From a virus, in IMG/VR virus record IMGVR_UViG_3300029258_001506, positions 1 through 64,000 of that record: 64,000 nt of DNA. One strand, given 5' to 3'. Made by a program: the position numbers and the translations under genes. Within the stretch, counting starts at the first letter, position 1; every line of letters starts with the position of its first letter. The notes under the pieces were generated by a model, which was not told where the DNA came from, ran no database searches, and saw nothing but the letters and a program-made list of their open reading frames with translations. Below, one piece after another: positions 6,329 to 58,442 of the stretch.

Positions 6329-8461
6329 ATGACCGTGACGGTCGAGCAGGTACTGGCGACCCTTTCCCTCGAGGAAGCGTCGCTCGCGACGGTGTCCGGG
6401 GCGCTGGTGCTGATCCTCCGGGATCCGCAACCGAACGATTCCGCCGCACCGATCGGCTCGACTGTCGGTGTCCGCGTCGTCGACCTCGAAGCCGATCCCG
6501 CGCTCGGCTCCTGGGGTCGAGTGGTCACCGTCCAGATCGACCAGGGGGCCGGCTGGGAGACCGCGTACTCGACGGCCAGTGGATTCGGCGCGGCCTGGAA
6601 CGGGGCCGACAGCGCGGTCTCCTCGCACGCCTCGAGTGATCCGTACGCGTACATCGACATCGTCTGCGACCAGACCGGCGCGGGGATGTTCGACGGCGAG
6701 GAAACGGTGCAGGTCCGGGTCGTCTGCGAGGGGGGCGGGTTCGGGCACGCATCGTTCGGTCACTACCCGTTCGGGAGTCCGCCGGCGGCGGCCGAGCTGG
6801 ACGAGACGTGGAGCTTCGTCACCGAGGACACGACCTCGCCGCGGCTGCTCTCGGCCGAGGCGATCGATCAGGTCACGGTCCGGGCCACATTCGACGACGC
6901 GATGACGGGGACCAGCCCGGACGGCCGGGCCGCGGCGAACACCTCCGGAACAGAGACCTGGGATCTTTCCAGCGGCGGTGAAACCCTGACGGTCAAGGTC
7001 GACGGGGGCACCGAGCAGACGGTGACCTTCGCCGTCGACATGTGGCTCGATCCTAGCGCCGTCACGGCGGCTGAGCTGGCGTACAACCTCTCGGCCCTGG
7101 TGTCGGGAGGGGTCGCCGAGGAGACGGTCTCAGGGGCCGTCTCGTTGCTCTCAGAGACGGTCGGCGATGACTCGAGCATCCAGATCACCGGGGGGACGGC
7201 GAACACCGAGTTGTCTTTTCCGACCACACTGCAAACCGGCTCGTTCACCGGCGCGGCCGAGGCGGCGAACTACACCTTCACCAGGCAGAACGTTTACCCG
7301 GCCGTGGCCGTCAACCTCGAGGCCGTGTCCGTCGCGTTCGTCGACGGCTCCGGTCAGACGCAGGTCGACATCACGGTCGACTGGCCGATGACTCCGGACG
7401 CTCCGTACCAGCTCACCGTCGACAGCGACCTCACCGACACGTCGGAGAACACCATCGACGGGGACTACCTGACCGCGAGCTTCTCCGGGTTCGTCCCGGA
7501 TTGGCCGGCGCTGCGCAGCACGGAGATCAAGCTCCCGCAGACCATCTGGGATCGGGATTACCAGCAGGTCGCGCGCGCGCTGCTCAACATCTTCCAGGAA
7601 GCCGAGGATCTGACGGTCACGACGATCGACCAGTTCCTCGAGCAGCTTGACCCGGACAGGATGGTCGAGTCGATTATCGACCTGGCGCTGTACGGTATGG
7701 GAAACCCGTTCACCCGTGCCGAACTGGACCTGACCGCGCACGAGAAGAAGAAGCTCCTCGACCTGCTCCCGGTACTGTACCAGTACAAGGGGCTCGGCGT
7801 CGGCATCGAGGCGGCGATCCAGCTCCTGCTCGGCCTGGACGTGCAGGTCGTGCCGTGGGTCTCCGACGGCTGGCGGCTCGGCGAGGACTACCTCGGCGAC
7901 ACGTTCCCGGCCGAGGTCGTCGCCGGCAACGCCGAGACCTACAACCTGACGGGAGGCGGGACGCTCACGGTCAGCATCGACGGCGGATCGGACCAGACGG
8001 TGACGTTCGTTGACGGCGATTTCGACACGCCGTCGGCCGCGCTCGCCGAGGAAGTCGCCGCGGTGATCGTGGCCCAGCTCGTCGGCGGGTCAGCGGCGGA
8101 GACCGACCCGGGGACCGGGGCCGCGGTAACCATCACCTCGACGCTCTGGGGACCGGAGGCGTCGGTGCAGGTCACCGGCGGGACGGCGAACAGCGCGCTC
8201 GGGTTCGACACGACGAAGCACCACGGCGGCGGCGGATGCCTGCTCGCGCCGAGCACCAGCCGCGCGATCCGTACCTTTGACATCGAAGTGCAGTCGTCGG
8301 TAACATCGACACAAGAGTCGATCATTTGTTGGATCGCTACGTACATGAAGGCAGTAAACGAACACGTCGGAGAGATCCGCACCGCCCGAACCGTACCAAC
8401 ATCCGACGAGTGGTCTCTCGGTGACAGCCGGCTCGGCGAGGGGACGATCCTCGGAGAGTAG
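6329..8461 (+). CDS. Baseplate / tail protein with P2 gpI-like domain
   Basis: 710 residues. The central region (about 390-515) carries the gpI-like signature: 'LPQTIWDRDYQQVARALLN' followed by 'LDLLPVLYQYKGLGVGIEA', the pattern of the TIGR02242/P2 I tail-protein family that joins baseplate wedge and fibre. The N-terminal 200 residues look like Ig-type beta domains. Two homologous beta modules of about 100 residues (near 205-305 and 530-630) share 'LTV.(V/I)DGG..QTVTF' and 'Q(I/V)TGGTAN..L.F', flanking the gpI core. Family identity of the core is fairly sure; the role of the beta modules (carbohydrate or fibre contact) is inferred. Confidence 0.78.
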   Translation: MTVTVEQVLATLSLEEASLATVSGALVLILRDPQPNDSAAPIGSTVGVRVVDLEADPALGSWGRVVTVQIDQGAGWETAYSTASGFGAAWNGADSAVSSHASSDPYAYIDIVCDQTGAGMFDGEETVQVRVVCEGGGFGHASFGHYPFGSPPAAAELDETWSFVTEDTTSPRLLSAEAIDQVTVRATFDDAMTGTSPDGRAAANTSGTETWDLSSGGETLTVKVDGGTEQTVTFAVDMWLDPSAVTAAELAYNLSALVSGGVAEETVSGAVSLLSETVGDDSSIQITGGTANTELSFPTTLQTGSFTGAAEAANYTFTRQNVYPAVAVNLEAVSVAFVDGSGQTQVDITVDWPMTPDAPYQLTVDSDLTDTSENTIDGDYLTASFSGFVPDWPALRSTEIKLPQTIWDRDYQQVARALLNIFQEAEDLTVTTIDQFLEQLDPDRMVESIIDLALYGMGNPFTRAELDLTAHEKKKLLDLLPVLYQYKGLGVGIEAAIQLLLGLDVQVVPWVSDGWRLGEDYLGDTFPAEVVAGNAETYNLTGGGTLTVSIDGGSDQTVTFVDGDFDTPSAALAEEVAAVIVAQLVGGSAAETDPGTGAAVTITSTLWGPEASVQVTGGTANSALGFDTTKHHGGGGCLLAPSTSRAIRTFDIEVQSSVTSTQESIICWIATYMKAVNEHVGEIRTARTVPTSDEWSLGDSRLGEGTILGE

Positions 8462-14027: not shown

Positions 14028-14055
14028 TTGACAGCAAATAGTCCTGCGTTACAAT
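14028..14055 (+). promoter_or_regulatory. Sigma70-type promoter for recombination/replication genes
   Basis: TTGACA (14028-14033), 16-bp spacer, TACAAT (14050-14055). The sequence after it (GTAACC) is shared with the eight repeated cassettes (CACACTGTAACC), showing related promoters. The leader then contains GGTCCG/CGGACC (14063-14081) and CCGGC/GCCGG hairpins before the Shine-Dalgarno GGAAGGGGA. Region 13961-14027 shows nothing else. Confidence 0.75.
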
Positions 14056-25999: not shown

Positions 26000-26098
26000 C
26001 CGGAAACCCTTGCGGGAGTAGGGCGAAAACTTTTTTAAAAAAAAGTGAAAAAAGTTGTTGACACCTCCCGGGGGCTGTGTCACACTGTAACCATGATG
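26000..26098 (+). promoter_or_regulatory. Repeated promoter cassette, copy 1
   Basis: Terminator/UP-type block 'CGGAAACCCTTGCGGGAGTA' then an A/T palindrome (CTTTTTTAAAAAAAAG), TTGACA 26058-26063, 17-bp spacer with TGACA/TGTCA arms, TGT-CACACT (extended -10, 26081-26086), GTAACC, ATGATG at 26093. One of eight copies. Confidence 0.85.
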
Positions 26099-27424: not shown

Positions 27425-27520
27425 CAAACCCGCGTCGCAGTAGGCCCAGAAAAAAAGTGAAAAAAGTTTAAAAAAGATGTTGACAGGTTCGGAAACCTGT
27501 GTCACACTGTAACCATGATG
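27425..27520 (+). promoter_or_regulatory. Repeated promoter cassette, copy 2
   Basis: A-rich block, TTGACA 27480-27485, 17-bp spacer containing the perfect inverted repeat ACAGGTT...AACCTGT, TGT-CACACT (27503-27508), GTAACC, ATGATG at 27515. Belongs to the 'GTAGG(T/C)CCAGAAAAAAAG' upstream subtype (copies 2, 5, 8). Confidence 0.85.
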
Positions 27521-27550
27521 AACGGAACAAACAACACAGCGGAGGCCACG

Positions 27551-27826
27551 ATGACCCGGACGATGACCAGCGAAGAAAGCTACCTCGACACCATCGCCAA
27601 GCAGACCGCCGACCTTCTCGAGCAGGTCGTCGCCGATCAGAAGTCGGCCAGCGACTCCGAGCGCGAGAACGACGCGTACCAGATCGCCGAGTCTCTCCGC
27701 GAACTGGCCGCGGCGGTCGACGATGTAGCCGGCTTCCTTTCCTGGGGTTGGACGTGGGACGCGAAGCTGGTCTGGACCGAGACGGTGATGTGCCGGGCCG
27801 AGGACTTCCTCGGCATCGAGGGCTAA
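27551..27826 (+). CDS. Small helical protein
   Basis: 91 residues from ATG 27551 (GCGGAGG upstream); leader ATGATG at 27515 is in frame. Entirely helical, with Leu/Ala/Glu/Asp, and Trp-rich 'FLSWGWTWDAKLVWTET'. Possibly a protein-interaction inhibitor; function unknown. Confidence 0.62.
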   Translation: MTRTMTSEESYLDTIAKQTADLLEQVVADQKSASDSERENDAYQIAESLRELAAAVDDVAGFLSWGWTWDAKLVWTETVMCRAEDFLGIEG

Positions 27827-27860: not shown

Positions 27861-28130
27861 ATGACCATCACTACTGAGCAGAAGGCGGCGGCGGCGGAGA
27901 TGGCGGATTGGGATCTGATCGTGGCCGCGCTCCACTGGAACGGCGAGCTGCATAGCTGCCTCGACGAGAACGAGGCGCTGCTCGTTTACTCGCTGGCAGA
28001 CGGGTACGGCCGCGCTCCGCTGGCGGAGTTGATGGCGTCGATCGGTTGGGACTGGTCGCACATCCGGGACAGCTCGGACGATGCGTGCAAGACGATGGCC
28101 GCGACGATCCGCGGCCTGCTCGGAAGCTAA
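27861..28130 (+). CDS. Small helical protein
   Basis: 89 residues. All-helical: 'AAAAEMADWDLIVAALHW', 'NEALLVYSLADGYGRAPLAE'. Its stop codon is followed at once by a tRNA-like T-arm and the structured RNA region. Unknown function. Confidence 0.6.
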   Translation: MTITTEQKAAAAEMADWDLIVAALHWNGELHSCLDENEALLVYSLADGYGRAPLAELMASIGWDWSHIRDSSDDACKTMAATIRGLLGS

Positions 28131-28172
28131 CCGCGGTTGGAGCTGGGCCGGGTTCGAATCCCGGACGCGGTA
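28130..28172 (+). ncRNA. tRNA-like acceptor/T-arm minihelix
   Basis: ACCGCGG (28130-28136) pairs with ACGCGGT (28165-28171) over six of seven positions. CCGGG-TTCGAAT-CCCGG (28148-28164) is a perfect T-arm with canonical T-loop. Only 11 nt lie between, so D and anticodon arms are absent. It may be a tRNA-like processing signal, a tRNA relic, or an attachment-site remnant, next to the structured RNA at 28190. Confidence 0.5.
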
Positions 28173-28189
28173 TCGGTTCTTTGACAATT

Positions 28190-28501
28190 CGAGACTGAGC
28201 AGCGGCAGGCTGCAGAACGTCTGCCGAAAGCGTGGGAAACTGGACGCGGTTTCCGGTGAGGTAGCGACCCTGAAGTCTGGGAGCGATGCTCGCAGTCCCC
28301 GACCCGCCCTGGTTGCGGTAGGGATAGAAGCGGTCAAGAAAACCAAAAGCCGGGACCTGGGAGCAGTACGGTGCTTACCGCAACGACCGGGGCAACCCGC
28401 GAGCTGGGCCGAAGCCGAAAGGCGGGAAAGCCGGTGTAGCTGACGACGCGCCTGTAAACGAAGCGCCTGGGAAGGTACAGCGATGTCGCTGCTCAGTCTC
28501 G
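28190..28501 (+). ncRNA. Candidate large structured RNA closed by 18-bp stem
   Basis: CGAGACTGAGCAGCGGCA (28190-28207) pairs with TGTCGCTGCTCAGTCTCG (28484-28501) with a single G-U. The interior has an 8-bp pair TTGCGGTA/TACCGCAA, GGAAAC/GTTTCC, CGGG-GCAA-CCCG and GCC-GAAA-GGC (GNRA loops), and several shorter stems. No convincing ORF occupies it. This accounts for the about 400-bp stretch without a gene (28131-28526). Size, long terminal stem and adjacent tRNA-like element recall phage ornate RNAs such as GOLLD or ROOL, but no family match is claimed. Confidence 0.65.
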
Positions 28502-28526
28502 GATGGTCAAGGAAAAGGAGAGAGCG

Positions 28527-28802
28527 ATGCGATGGAACGACGTGTGTATGCCACTGCTCGACGACGTGCTCGAGTCGGAGCTGGTGCTATCCAAGCAGGA
28601 AGTGGCGAACCTCAACCGGGCGGTGGGTACGCTGGCGATGATACGCAAGCAGCTCGAGCAGGAGTATGGCGAGGACGACGCGTTCGAGTTGCCGGAGGCG
28701 GAGCCGTGGATCTCCGCGGCGAGCTATCTCTCGGAGGCGCTCGACAACCTGGCGGCCGGGGCGCTGATCAAGTTGCCGGCGCGGCCGGCTCTCGAGAAGT
28801 GA
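28527..28802 (+). CDS. Small helical acidic protein
   Basis: 91 residues from ATG 28527 (AAAAGGAGAGAGCG upstream). Helical with 'DVLESELVLSKQEVANLNRA' and acidic 'GEDDAFELPEAE'. The 3' arm of the structured RNA ends 25 bp before this start. Function unknown. Confidence 0.62.
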   Translation: MRWNDVCMPLLDDVLESELVLSKQEVANLNRAVGTLAMIRKQLEQEYGEDDAFELPEAEPWISAASYLSEALDNLAAGALIKLPARPALEK

Positions 28803-28805
28803 ATT

Positions 28806-28833
28806 TTGTCATCGTTCAGCGCTGTGTTATAAT
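28806..28833 (+). promoter_or_regulatory. Strong sigma70 promoter before RecF/SbcC-like ATPase operon
   Basis: TTGTCA (28806-28811), 16-bp spacer, perfect TATAAT (28828-28833) with TGT extension. Starts 3 bp after the preceding stop. Transcripts should begin near 28840, at the foot of the leader stem-loop. Confidence 0.85.
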
Positions 28834-39918: not shown

Positions 39919-40020
39919 GCCCCGCAAACGCCCGCCGCTGTAGGTCCAGAAAAAAAGTGAAAAAAGTTAAAAAAAGATGTTGACAGGTCCGCGGTCCCGT
40001 GTCACACTGTAACCATGATG
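39919..40020 (+). promoter_or_regulatory. Repeated promoter cassette, copy 5
   Basis: 'GTAGGTCCAGAAAAAAAGTG' upstream subtype, TTGACA 39980-39985, spacer with GGTCCGCGGTCCC dyad and TGACA/TGTCA arms, CACACT 40003-40008, GTAACC, ATGATG at 40015. Same spacer as copy 8. Confidence 0.85.
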
Positions 40021-40034
40021 AACGAAACAAACAC

Positions 40035-40120
40035 GGCGACGCGCAGCAAAAAGGGAGCCGGTAGCTCCGCCCGCCAGGGTGCTTGCGAGTCTAACGAGGG
40101 TTCGACTCCCTCCGTCGCCT
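40035..40120 (+). ncRNA. tRNA-like element in cassette-5 leader
   Basis: 86 nt. Perfect 7-bp acceptor GGCGACG/CGTCGCC, perfect T-arm GAGGG-TTCGACT-CCCTC, discriminator T. The middle does not fold as D plus anticodon arms: instead CGCAGCA can pair with TGCTTGCG, enclosing GGAGC-CGGTA-GCTCC and CCC-GCCA-GGG hairpins. So it is a tRNA-like structure or a degenerate tRNA, transcribed 20 nt into the mRNA from the cassette-5 promoter. It carries no CCA. Confidence 0.55.
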
Positions 40121-57224: not shown

Positions 57225-57260
57225 GAAAGTGACCGGTGCGTTTAACAAGGAGAGATCAAA

Positions 57261-57425
57261 GTGAGCGTTTCGGTGTCAATCGTTTGCGACATATGCGGAA
57301 AAAGTGAGTCGTGCGGTGCGGGAGTTGAGCGGGCCAAAGTTCATGCTGTTCGATCACGACTAAAGCTGATTGGCTGGATCCATCGCGGAAGCTGTGACCT
57401 ATGCCCACAGTGTAAGGACAGGTGA
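57261..57425 (+). CDS. Small zinc-ribbon protein (54 residues)
   Basis: GTG 57261 with AAGGAGAG upstream to TGA 57423-57425. 'IVCDICGKSESCGAGVERAK' and 'GSCDLCPQCKDR' make a clear four-Cys ribbon. Its stop overlaps the methyltransferase ATG, so they are translationally coupled. Short enough to be overlooked. Confidence 0.65.
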   Translation: MSVSVSIVCDICGKSESCGAGVERAKVHAVRSRLKLIGWIHRGSCDLCPQCKDR

Positions 57426-58348
57426 TGCGTGAGCTGGCACTTTTTGCAGGGGCAGGAGGCGGCTTGCTGGCCTCACGCTTGCTTGGATGGCGCACCGTAT
57501 GTGCTGTCGAAATTGATTCCTACTGTCAGCAACGGCTGCTTGACAGACAGCGGGATGGGTGTTTGCCGCGATTCCCAGTGTGGGACGACGTTTGCACATT
57601 CGACGGGCGCCCCTGGCGCGGACACATTGATGTCATCAGCGGAGGATTTCCATGCCAGGACATCAGTGCAGCGGGTCAAGGTGCAGGAATTACCGGATCA
57701 CGTTCTGGCCTTATCTTTGAAATGCTCAGAATTGTTGATGAAGCTCGGCCTACGTTTGTGTTCGCGGAAAACAGTCCGCAGCTTCGTACCAAGGGGCTGG
57801 CCACAATCATCGAGAGATTTATCCGCATGGGGTATGTGGGACGAGTCGGGGTATTGGGAGCTGGGGACATCGGTGCAAACCACGAGCGAAAGCGAATGTG
57901 GATCGTTGCCGTCTCCAAGAGCCTCAGATGCGGACAGGGGAGGGAGGGGCGACTTGCTACAGGCACTCAGAGGCAACAGCAACTCCCATTTCTCGGTGAA
58001 GGTGCCGACGCCAAGAGCAAACAAGTGGGGGCTGTCCTCCAGATCGGGCAATGGTTTGGCTGCAGTACTGAACAAATTACCGACACCGAAAGTGTGCGAA
58101 GGGGCCGATTGTCCTGCAGAGAGGAGGAGAAACACCCCCAATCTCGGAACAACGATCAACATGCGGACAGGATCGAGATTACTGACTGGTGGTGTCTACC
58201 CCGCTTTGCGGGAGTGGATGATGGGATGGCCGATAGGATGGACCGCGTCAAGGCCACTGGCAACGGACAGGTTCCAGGAGTGGCTGCGCTCGTTTGGAGC
58301 GTGCTCACAAGTGATCTCACGGCTGTTAACCCGGACGCAACCGTTTAA
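57425..58348 (+). CDS. C5-cytosine DNA methyltransferase
   Basis: 307 residues from ATG 57425. Motif I 'LALFAGAGGGLLASRLLGWR', motif IV 'GGFPCQDIS' (catalytic C77), motif VI 'FAENSPQL' (E115), motif VIII 'NHERKRMWIVA', motif IX-X 'GVDDGMADRMDRVKATGNGQ'. All catalytic elements are present. Orphan phage MTase, likely against host restriction. The same DNA also encodes a long second frame with phage-family hallmarks (57630-58406). Confidence 0.88.
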   Translation: MRELALFAGAGGGLLASRLLGWRTVCAVEIDSYCQQRLLDRQRDGCLPRFPVWDDVCTFDGRPWRGHIDVISGGFPCQDISAAGQGAGITGSRSGLIFEMLRIVDEARPTFVFAENSPQLRTKGLATIIERFIRMGYVGRVGVLGAGDIGANHERKRMWIVAVSKSLRCGQGREGRLATGTQRQQQLPFLGEGADAKSKQVGAVLQIGQWFGCSTEQITDTESVRRGRLSCREEEKHPQSRNNDQHADRIEITDWWCLPRFAGVDDGMADRMDRVKATGNGQVPGVAALVWSVLTSDLTAVNPDATV

Positions 58349-58406
58349 CAGCCGTGAGACGGTTAACACTGACATCAACAACGACGGCAACTTAGAGGAA
58401 GGTTGA
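57630..58406 (+). CDS. Second reading frame overlapping the C5 MTase
   Basis: 258 residues from ATG 57630, +1 relative to the MTase; the frame is open from 57429. It contains 'MSSAEDFHARTS', 'RDLSAWGMWDESGYWELGTS', 'GSLPSPRASDADRGGRGDLL', 'VPTPRANKWG' and 'WMMGWPIGWTASRPLATDRF', motifs I recognise from phage proteins annotated as MTase-associated. No ribosome site is visible. Either an overprinted protein, or conserved out-of-frame translation mistaken for genes elsewhere. Confidence 0.4.
   Translation: MSSAEDFHARTSVQRVKVQELPDHVLALSLKCSELLMKLGLRLCSRKTVRSFVPRGWPQSSRDLSAWGMWDESGYWELGTSVQTTSESECGSLPSPRASDADRGGRGDLLQALRGNSNSHFSVKVPTPRANKWGLSSRSGNGLAAVLNKLPTPKVCEGADCPAERRRNTPNLGTTINMRTGSRLLTGGVYPALREWMMGWPIGWTASRPLATDRFQEWLRSFGACSQVISRLLTRTQPFNSRETVNTDINNDGNLEEG
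58316..58358 (+). terminator. 14-bp stem hairpin after C5 MTase
   Basis: CTCACGGCTGTTAA (58316-58329) and TTAACAGCCGTGAG (58345-58358) are a perfect 14-bp inverted repeat with 15-nt loop, spanning the MTase stop (58346-58348). No U-tract follows, so it may be Rho-dependent, a processing site or an mRNA stabiliser. Confidence 0.45.
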
Positions 58407-58442
58407 GAGATGGGTTGCGACCATGATTTTGGGAAGGAGAAC

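Follow-up and report, generated by a model that had tools for sequence, protein, structure and literature searches.

What does a phage encode in a gene-free stretch that lies between two small protein genes, and could the transcript of that stretch be an RNA in its own right? We pursued this question in an uncultured phage, for which the window, that is, the whole stretch of DNA analyzed, covers the initial 64 kb of a virus record of 98,187 bases in which all predicted genes are on the plus strand. The original prediction described a structured RNA closed by an 18-bp stem, with a boxA-like segment and a tRNA-like T-arm just upstream. Our analysis supports a non-coding, stem-closed RNA beside a tRNA-like element and an rRNA-type boxA. 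We see about an even chance that it is cut from an early polycistronic phage transcript by signals of the type used in pre-rRNA.

The gene-free stretch and its presumed transcription unit

The absence of genes was borne out, in that a gap of 396 nt separates the flanking genes (table 1) and none of the six reading frames that span the RNA has a coding signature (scores of -0.30 to -0.53 per codon, versus a median of +0.34 for phage genes). The two flanking genes themselves score +0.37 and +0.41 per codon. The stop codon of the upstream neighbor ends on the first base of the acceptor stem of the tRNA-like fold described below.

Table 1. Features of the element and its surroundings, with positions in the window.
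Feature	Position	Strand	Basis or remark
Probable promoter of the presumed RNA-carrying transcript	27480..27515	+	TTGACA-17-CACACT; promoter function putative
Small protein gene, upstream, same presumed operon	27515..27826	+	No family match
Small protein gene, 89 aa	27861..28130	+	No PHROG or Pfam match
tRNA-like acceptor/T-arm minihelix, 43 nt	28130..28172	+	Sub-threshold mascRNA match, E 0.16; structural scan
boxA-like element GTTCTTTGACAATT	28176..28189	+	Consensus GYTCTTTAANA, PMC5725501
Closing helix, 5' arm, includes boxA	28177..28207	+	Inverted-pair search, folding
RNA interior, about 276 nt	28208..28483	+	Folding versus shuffled sequence
Closing helix, 3' arm; end adjoins the ribosome binding site of the 28527 gene	28484..28514	+	Inverted-pair search, folding
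Downstream protein gene, 91 aa counted from 28527 (possible alternative ATG at 28503)	28527..28802	+	No PHROG or Pfam match

The probable promoter belongs to a set of eight close, near-identical copies of the TTGACA-17-CACACT block in the record (at 26058, 27480, 37200, 38759, 39980, 41214, 42925, and 45434), all on the plus strand and each followed by ATGATG, which suggests leaderless starts. A ninth match, at 14028, is divergent. These promoter-like blocks comprise an A-tract, TTGACA, in some spacers an inverted repeat such as ACAGGTTCGGAAACCTGT, GTCACACTGTAACC, and ATGATG; the inverted repeat is a possible operator. Elsewhere in the window, we noted a strong sigma-70-like promoter with an extended -10 (TTGTCA-16-TATAAT, 28806-28833, plus strand) within a hairpin directly before an ATPase gene, and 1185 nt without a well-scoring gene (57225-58409). 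Within the latter, a frame of 325 aa (57429-58406), which matched nothing in Pfam, may represent a gene of foreign composition.

A closing helix that begins in a boxA-like element

The closing stem exists, and its length had been understated. It consists of 30 pairs in 31 positions, arranged as one segment of 21 pairs (28187-28207/28484-28504) and another of nine (28177-28185/28506-28514) on either side of a single A.G mismatch, with pair probabilities of 0.97-0.98. The proper extent of the RNA is about 28177-28514 (338 nt) rather than 28190-28501. With a score of 28, this stem is the top long-range inverted pairing in the 98-kb record, where the runners-up score 19, and it exceeds the maximum of 21 reached in 40 dinucleotide shuffles of the record. 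The folding energy of the whole element lies 4.9-5.3 s.d. below that of shuffles, and this is due to the closing helix, because the interior alone is no more stable than shuffled sequence (z -0.26). Of the four positions at which the arms differ, three form G.U wobbles and so remain paired in RNA, which gives a weak hint of selection at the RNA level.

The boxA-like segment is present as described, yet it forms the outer end of the stem rather than lying just upstream of it. The match of GTTCTTTGACA to the Escherichia coli boxA consensus, GYTCTTTAANA (PMC5725501), extends to 10 of 11 positions. When G is allowed at the mismatch (GYTCTTTRANA), it is the only sense-strand match in the 724 kb that make up the record and its terminase relatives.

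The upstream T-arm was also recovered, within a 43-nt acceptor/T-arm fold that ends 3 nt before GTTCTTTGACAATT. Its T arm (CCGGG-TTCGAAT-CCCGG) has a perfect five-pair stem, the discriminator is A, and the acceptor (28130-28136/28165-28171) has six of seven pairs and one mismatch. An 11-nt linker takes the place of the D and anticodon arms, leaving only the acceptor and T arm, and neither ARAGORN nor Rfam RF00005 detected a tRNA cloverleaf in the window. Because the minimum-energy fold (MFE) of the isolated sequence is a different one, formation of the minihelix is likely rather than certain. The mascRNA-type minihelix (RF01684) likewise combines an acceptor and T arm with reduced D and anticodon arms; the likeness is of form only, since the score of 21.2 bits compares with a curated 42.5 bits and the mascRNA context is eukaryotic and unrelated.

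For the interior, the proposed stems TTGCGGTA/TACCGCAA and GGAAAC/GTTTCC are indeed firmly predicted (probability ~0.95), with helices at 28235-28242/28247-28254 and 28306-28322/28374-28393. Both of the GNRA hairpins that had been named (CGGG-GCAA-CCCG and GCC-GAAA-GGC) were, in contrast, displaced by alternative pairings with probabilities of 0.91-0.97, namely 28306-28313/28386-28393 and 28396-28400/28422-28426 together with 28407-28409/28414-28416. Since these strands are predicted to pair elsewhere and the interior is no more stable than shuffles, folding models do not support an 'ornate' interior.

Searches for homologues and known families

Rfam searches at gathering and relaxed thresholds (to E 5) recovered no family match apart from the sub-threshold mascRNA hit on the minihelix, and no rRNA family was detected inside the element, even at E 5. 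Of the families against which the RNA had originally been compared, GOLLD and ROOL, and likewise OLE, had no covariance-model match at the gathering score or up to E 5; nor did group I or group II introns match their models. For HEARO/omega RNA (IscB and TnpB guides) there was no RNA match at either threshold, PF07282 was absent from the record, and the adjacent genes matched no such family. Retron msr-msd and diversity-generating retroelement (DGR) RNAs were rejected in that the record has no RVT_1 (reverse transcriptase).

Direct searches likewise exposed no homologue. The region matched phages and plasmids by blastn only at chance level (29-34 nt), two exact core motifs had three chance matches in IMG/VR (L249, L302, L303), and no core homologue was present among the loci retrieved. 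None of the 21 terminase relatives contained a convincing counterpart of the RNA, nor did the four longest, which were also searched for an equivalent stem; the element is absent from relatives at about 50% terminase identity. A 64-nt match (72%) in relative G020 lies inside a coding gene and is not a homologue, and IMG/VR scans with the ATPase and the DnaB helicase found no relatives. A 'new class' of RNA, as first suggested, cannot be shown, because there is no Rfam match, no excess interior structure, and no homologue in these searches.

tRNA-boxA arrangements in other phages

The remark on boxA proved the better lead: within the phage group the motif is unique, and other phages have it again downstream of tRNAs. 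In the IMG/VR collection, T-arm sequences with TTTGACAA within 35 nt downstream came from 93 distinct contexts, and the commonest 4-mer preceding TTTGACAA was GTTC (7 of 93, versus 0.4 expected for a uniform 4-mer). The complete T-arm and boxA arrangement occurred in 15 IMG/VR records, several of which place it in tRNA arrays or beside tRNAs; examples from such settings, or near arrays, are L171, L263, L253, L292, L142, L161, and L181. A scan of GTDB with the 18-mer boxA returned 13 loci, about the chance level, one of which is a genuine case of boxA behind a tRNA: in L292, a contig of a Bryobacterales MAG, the exact 18-mer stands behind the first of 17 tRNAs in an array. A boxA in tRNA arrays makes sense because these are long untranslated RNAs exposed to Rho. 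In one phage tRNA array (L263:1-1100), we also noted recurring inter-tRNA spacer units (TTTTGCTTGTACC ... GGTACAGGCCG ... TTGGGTTATC), one with boxA.

The combination of boxA with a long closing helix was found once more. Among about 20 independent loci with GTTCTTTGACAATNCGA, one (L269, IMG/VR 3300038315_001610; identical in L279, 3300037195_001941) has a long closing helix, with boxA at L269:6108. Its helix score is 20.3, whereas none of 2640 random positions reached 20, and the fold of L269:6108-6300 has a z of -4.96 and places boxA toward the outer end of the helix. Like the window RNA, this locus is non-coding, has GTTCTTTGACAATTCGA at the outer end of its closing helix, and belongs to a phage in which a terminase gene is close by. 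It differs in being shorter and AT-richer, in an interior of unrelated sequence, in a second boxA-like GTTCTTTAACA inside, and in that no tRNA was found. A single boxA-helix case among about 20 loci (roughly p 0.01) is suggestive only.

tRNA-shaped RNAs in the phage group

A second tRNA-like element in the record (40035-40119, plus strand) has a seven-pair acceptor and a five-pair T arm and is not called by ARAGORN; the promoter-block copy at 39980 runs directly into it. A scan for tRNA-like minihelices in 22 records, the window record and its relatives, yielded six sense matches and one antisense. Relative G020 has an unusual tRNA-like element at 7244 (L101:7244-7359), and relative L117 has tandem elements (660-780 and 784-882), of which Rfam calls one a tRNA with a long insert. 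Given these elements and a tmRNA in a further relative (L123), the group thus makes tRNA-shaped RNAs freely.

Several other observations were made in these relatives. The tRNA-like elements of L117 and L101 have aberrant middle arms (an anticodon-loop-like GTT without U33, long inserts), and downstream of those in L117 lies a segment closed by CGATGCCAG/CTGGCATCG. The phage-encoded tmRNA (L123:8676-9016, minus strand) specifies the tag AENAWKLAA, and a 102-kb relative has a type II hammerhead ribozyme (L094:15587-15654, minus strand; Rfam RF02276, 49.9 bits). Terminase stretches matched by tblastn in L012, L018, and L022 contain in-frame stop codons under table 11, possibly reflecting recoding, frameshifting, or over-extended matches.

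A pre-rRNA-like unit without rRNA

In E. coli, the flanks of the rRNAs form long leader-trailer helices that are cut by RNase III (25-40 bp long for bacterial pre-16S), and boxA is one of the pre-rRNA cis elements that load the antitermination complex (PMC10250234). The phage element resembles rrn operons in that a single transcript unites a tRNA-type element, boxA, and a non-coding RNA closed by a long helix, and its 30 pairs fall within that range. It differs in enclosing about 276 nt that contain no rRNA and in having boxA itself within the helix. With a boxA that fits the consensus, a long near-perfect closing helix, and no rRNA inside, the element would work like a pre-rRNA unit yet hold no rRNA.

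By this analogy, boxA in the nascent RNA would recruit host NusB/S10 as the polymerase leaves the upstream gene, allowing ~400 untranslated bases to be crossed without Rho termination and keeping the downstream genes expressed. After synthesis of the 3' arm, boxA and the bases following it would pair with that arm in the 30-bp helix, a leader-trailer-like substrate for RNase III, while the upstream minihelix could provide a clean 5' boundary via RNase P and RNase Z or exonucleases. The presumed product would be a stable RNA.

Excision is favored by the helix score (28 against at most 21), the z of about -5, the G.U compatibility of three of the four arm differences, the precedent of the E. coli rRNAs, the non-coding frames, the unique boxA, the recurrence of tRNA-boxA, the L269/L279 locus, and the other tRNA-like elements. 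Against it stand the lack of a core homologue, of excess interior structure, and of a terminator, the minihelix not being the MFE in isolation and having an acceptor mismatch, the relatives at ~50% terminase identity without the element, and L269 sharing architecture and not sequence. Because no terminator follows the RNA, it may be nothing more than an mRNA spacer.

The same features can be read in other ways. The boxA and stem might act in cis on the downstream gene, through Nus-dependent antitermination or repression or through RNase III processing of the mRNA, and release no separate RNA. The 3' arm adjoins a ribosome binding site, two phage loci (L284 and L267) have the same 17-mer directly before one, the interior has no excess structure, and the boxA in the suhB 5' UTR, likewise a non-rRNA boxA in the untranslated region that precedes a gene, mediates Nus-dependent regulation (PMC5725501). 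The suhB boxA, however, represses an ordinary mRNA, whereas the phage boxA starts a long stem-closed non-coding stretch; an insert of 338 nt is large for such a purpose, the tRNA-like element would be left unexplained, and the downstream small protein matches no family, so that no regulatory logic can be named. We therefore regard control in cis as rather unlikely. In rrn operons, the 16S-23S spacer has the order tRNA, boxA, and leader-like helix. That order is mirrored here, phage tRNA arrays contain tRNA-boxA, and the tRNA-like element has no D and anticodon arms, as might be expected of a captured spacer or tRNA array in which the tRNA decayed, boxA was kept for antitermination, and the rest is neutral. 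Neutral decay would not, however, leave a 30-pair helix with one true mismatch, and no rRNA family matched even at E 5, making such a remnant quite unlikely.

Two further readings have little probability. Imperfect inverted repeats of 31 bp, about 280 bp apart with no gene between them, could belong to a MITE-like insertion whose terminal repeats mimic an RNA stem at the DNA level. Such a mobile element is very unlikely because the flanks have no target-site duplication and no second copy appeared in the record or in the blastn and IMG/VR motif searches; moreover, the repeat includes boxA and abuts the tRNA-like fold. In the least probable reading, the RNA is a small representative of the large, ornate phage-encoded RNAs and folds and assembles as an RNA complex. 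GOLLD and ROOL are often near tRNA islands (PMC12286853), and the likeness to them drawn in the original prediction holds in the loosest sense, that of a phage-encoded non-coding RNA beside a tRNA-like element. It fails in that the element has no Rfam match, is about half the length or less (338 nt versus about 600-800+), and has an interior that is neither conserved nor unusually stable.

Returning to excision by pre-rRNA-style signals, we tentatively suggest, as a somewhat doubtful generalization, that phages use a portable pre-rRNA-like cassette (tRNA-like cap, boxA, and leader-trailer helix) to make stable non-coding RNAs and excise them from protein-coding operons. The class would be defined by the cassette and not by the enclosed sequence, and L269 would be its second, unrelated member. 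Phage non-coding RNAs have mostly been found via sequence families, and orphan RNAs like this one are invisible to such detection. Should excised RNAs indeed be marked by a boxA where a long closing helix starts, architecture alone would suffice to screen phage genomes for processed RNAs, and phages would be borrowing the rRNA antitermination of the host in transcribing tRNA arrays and long untranslated RNAs.
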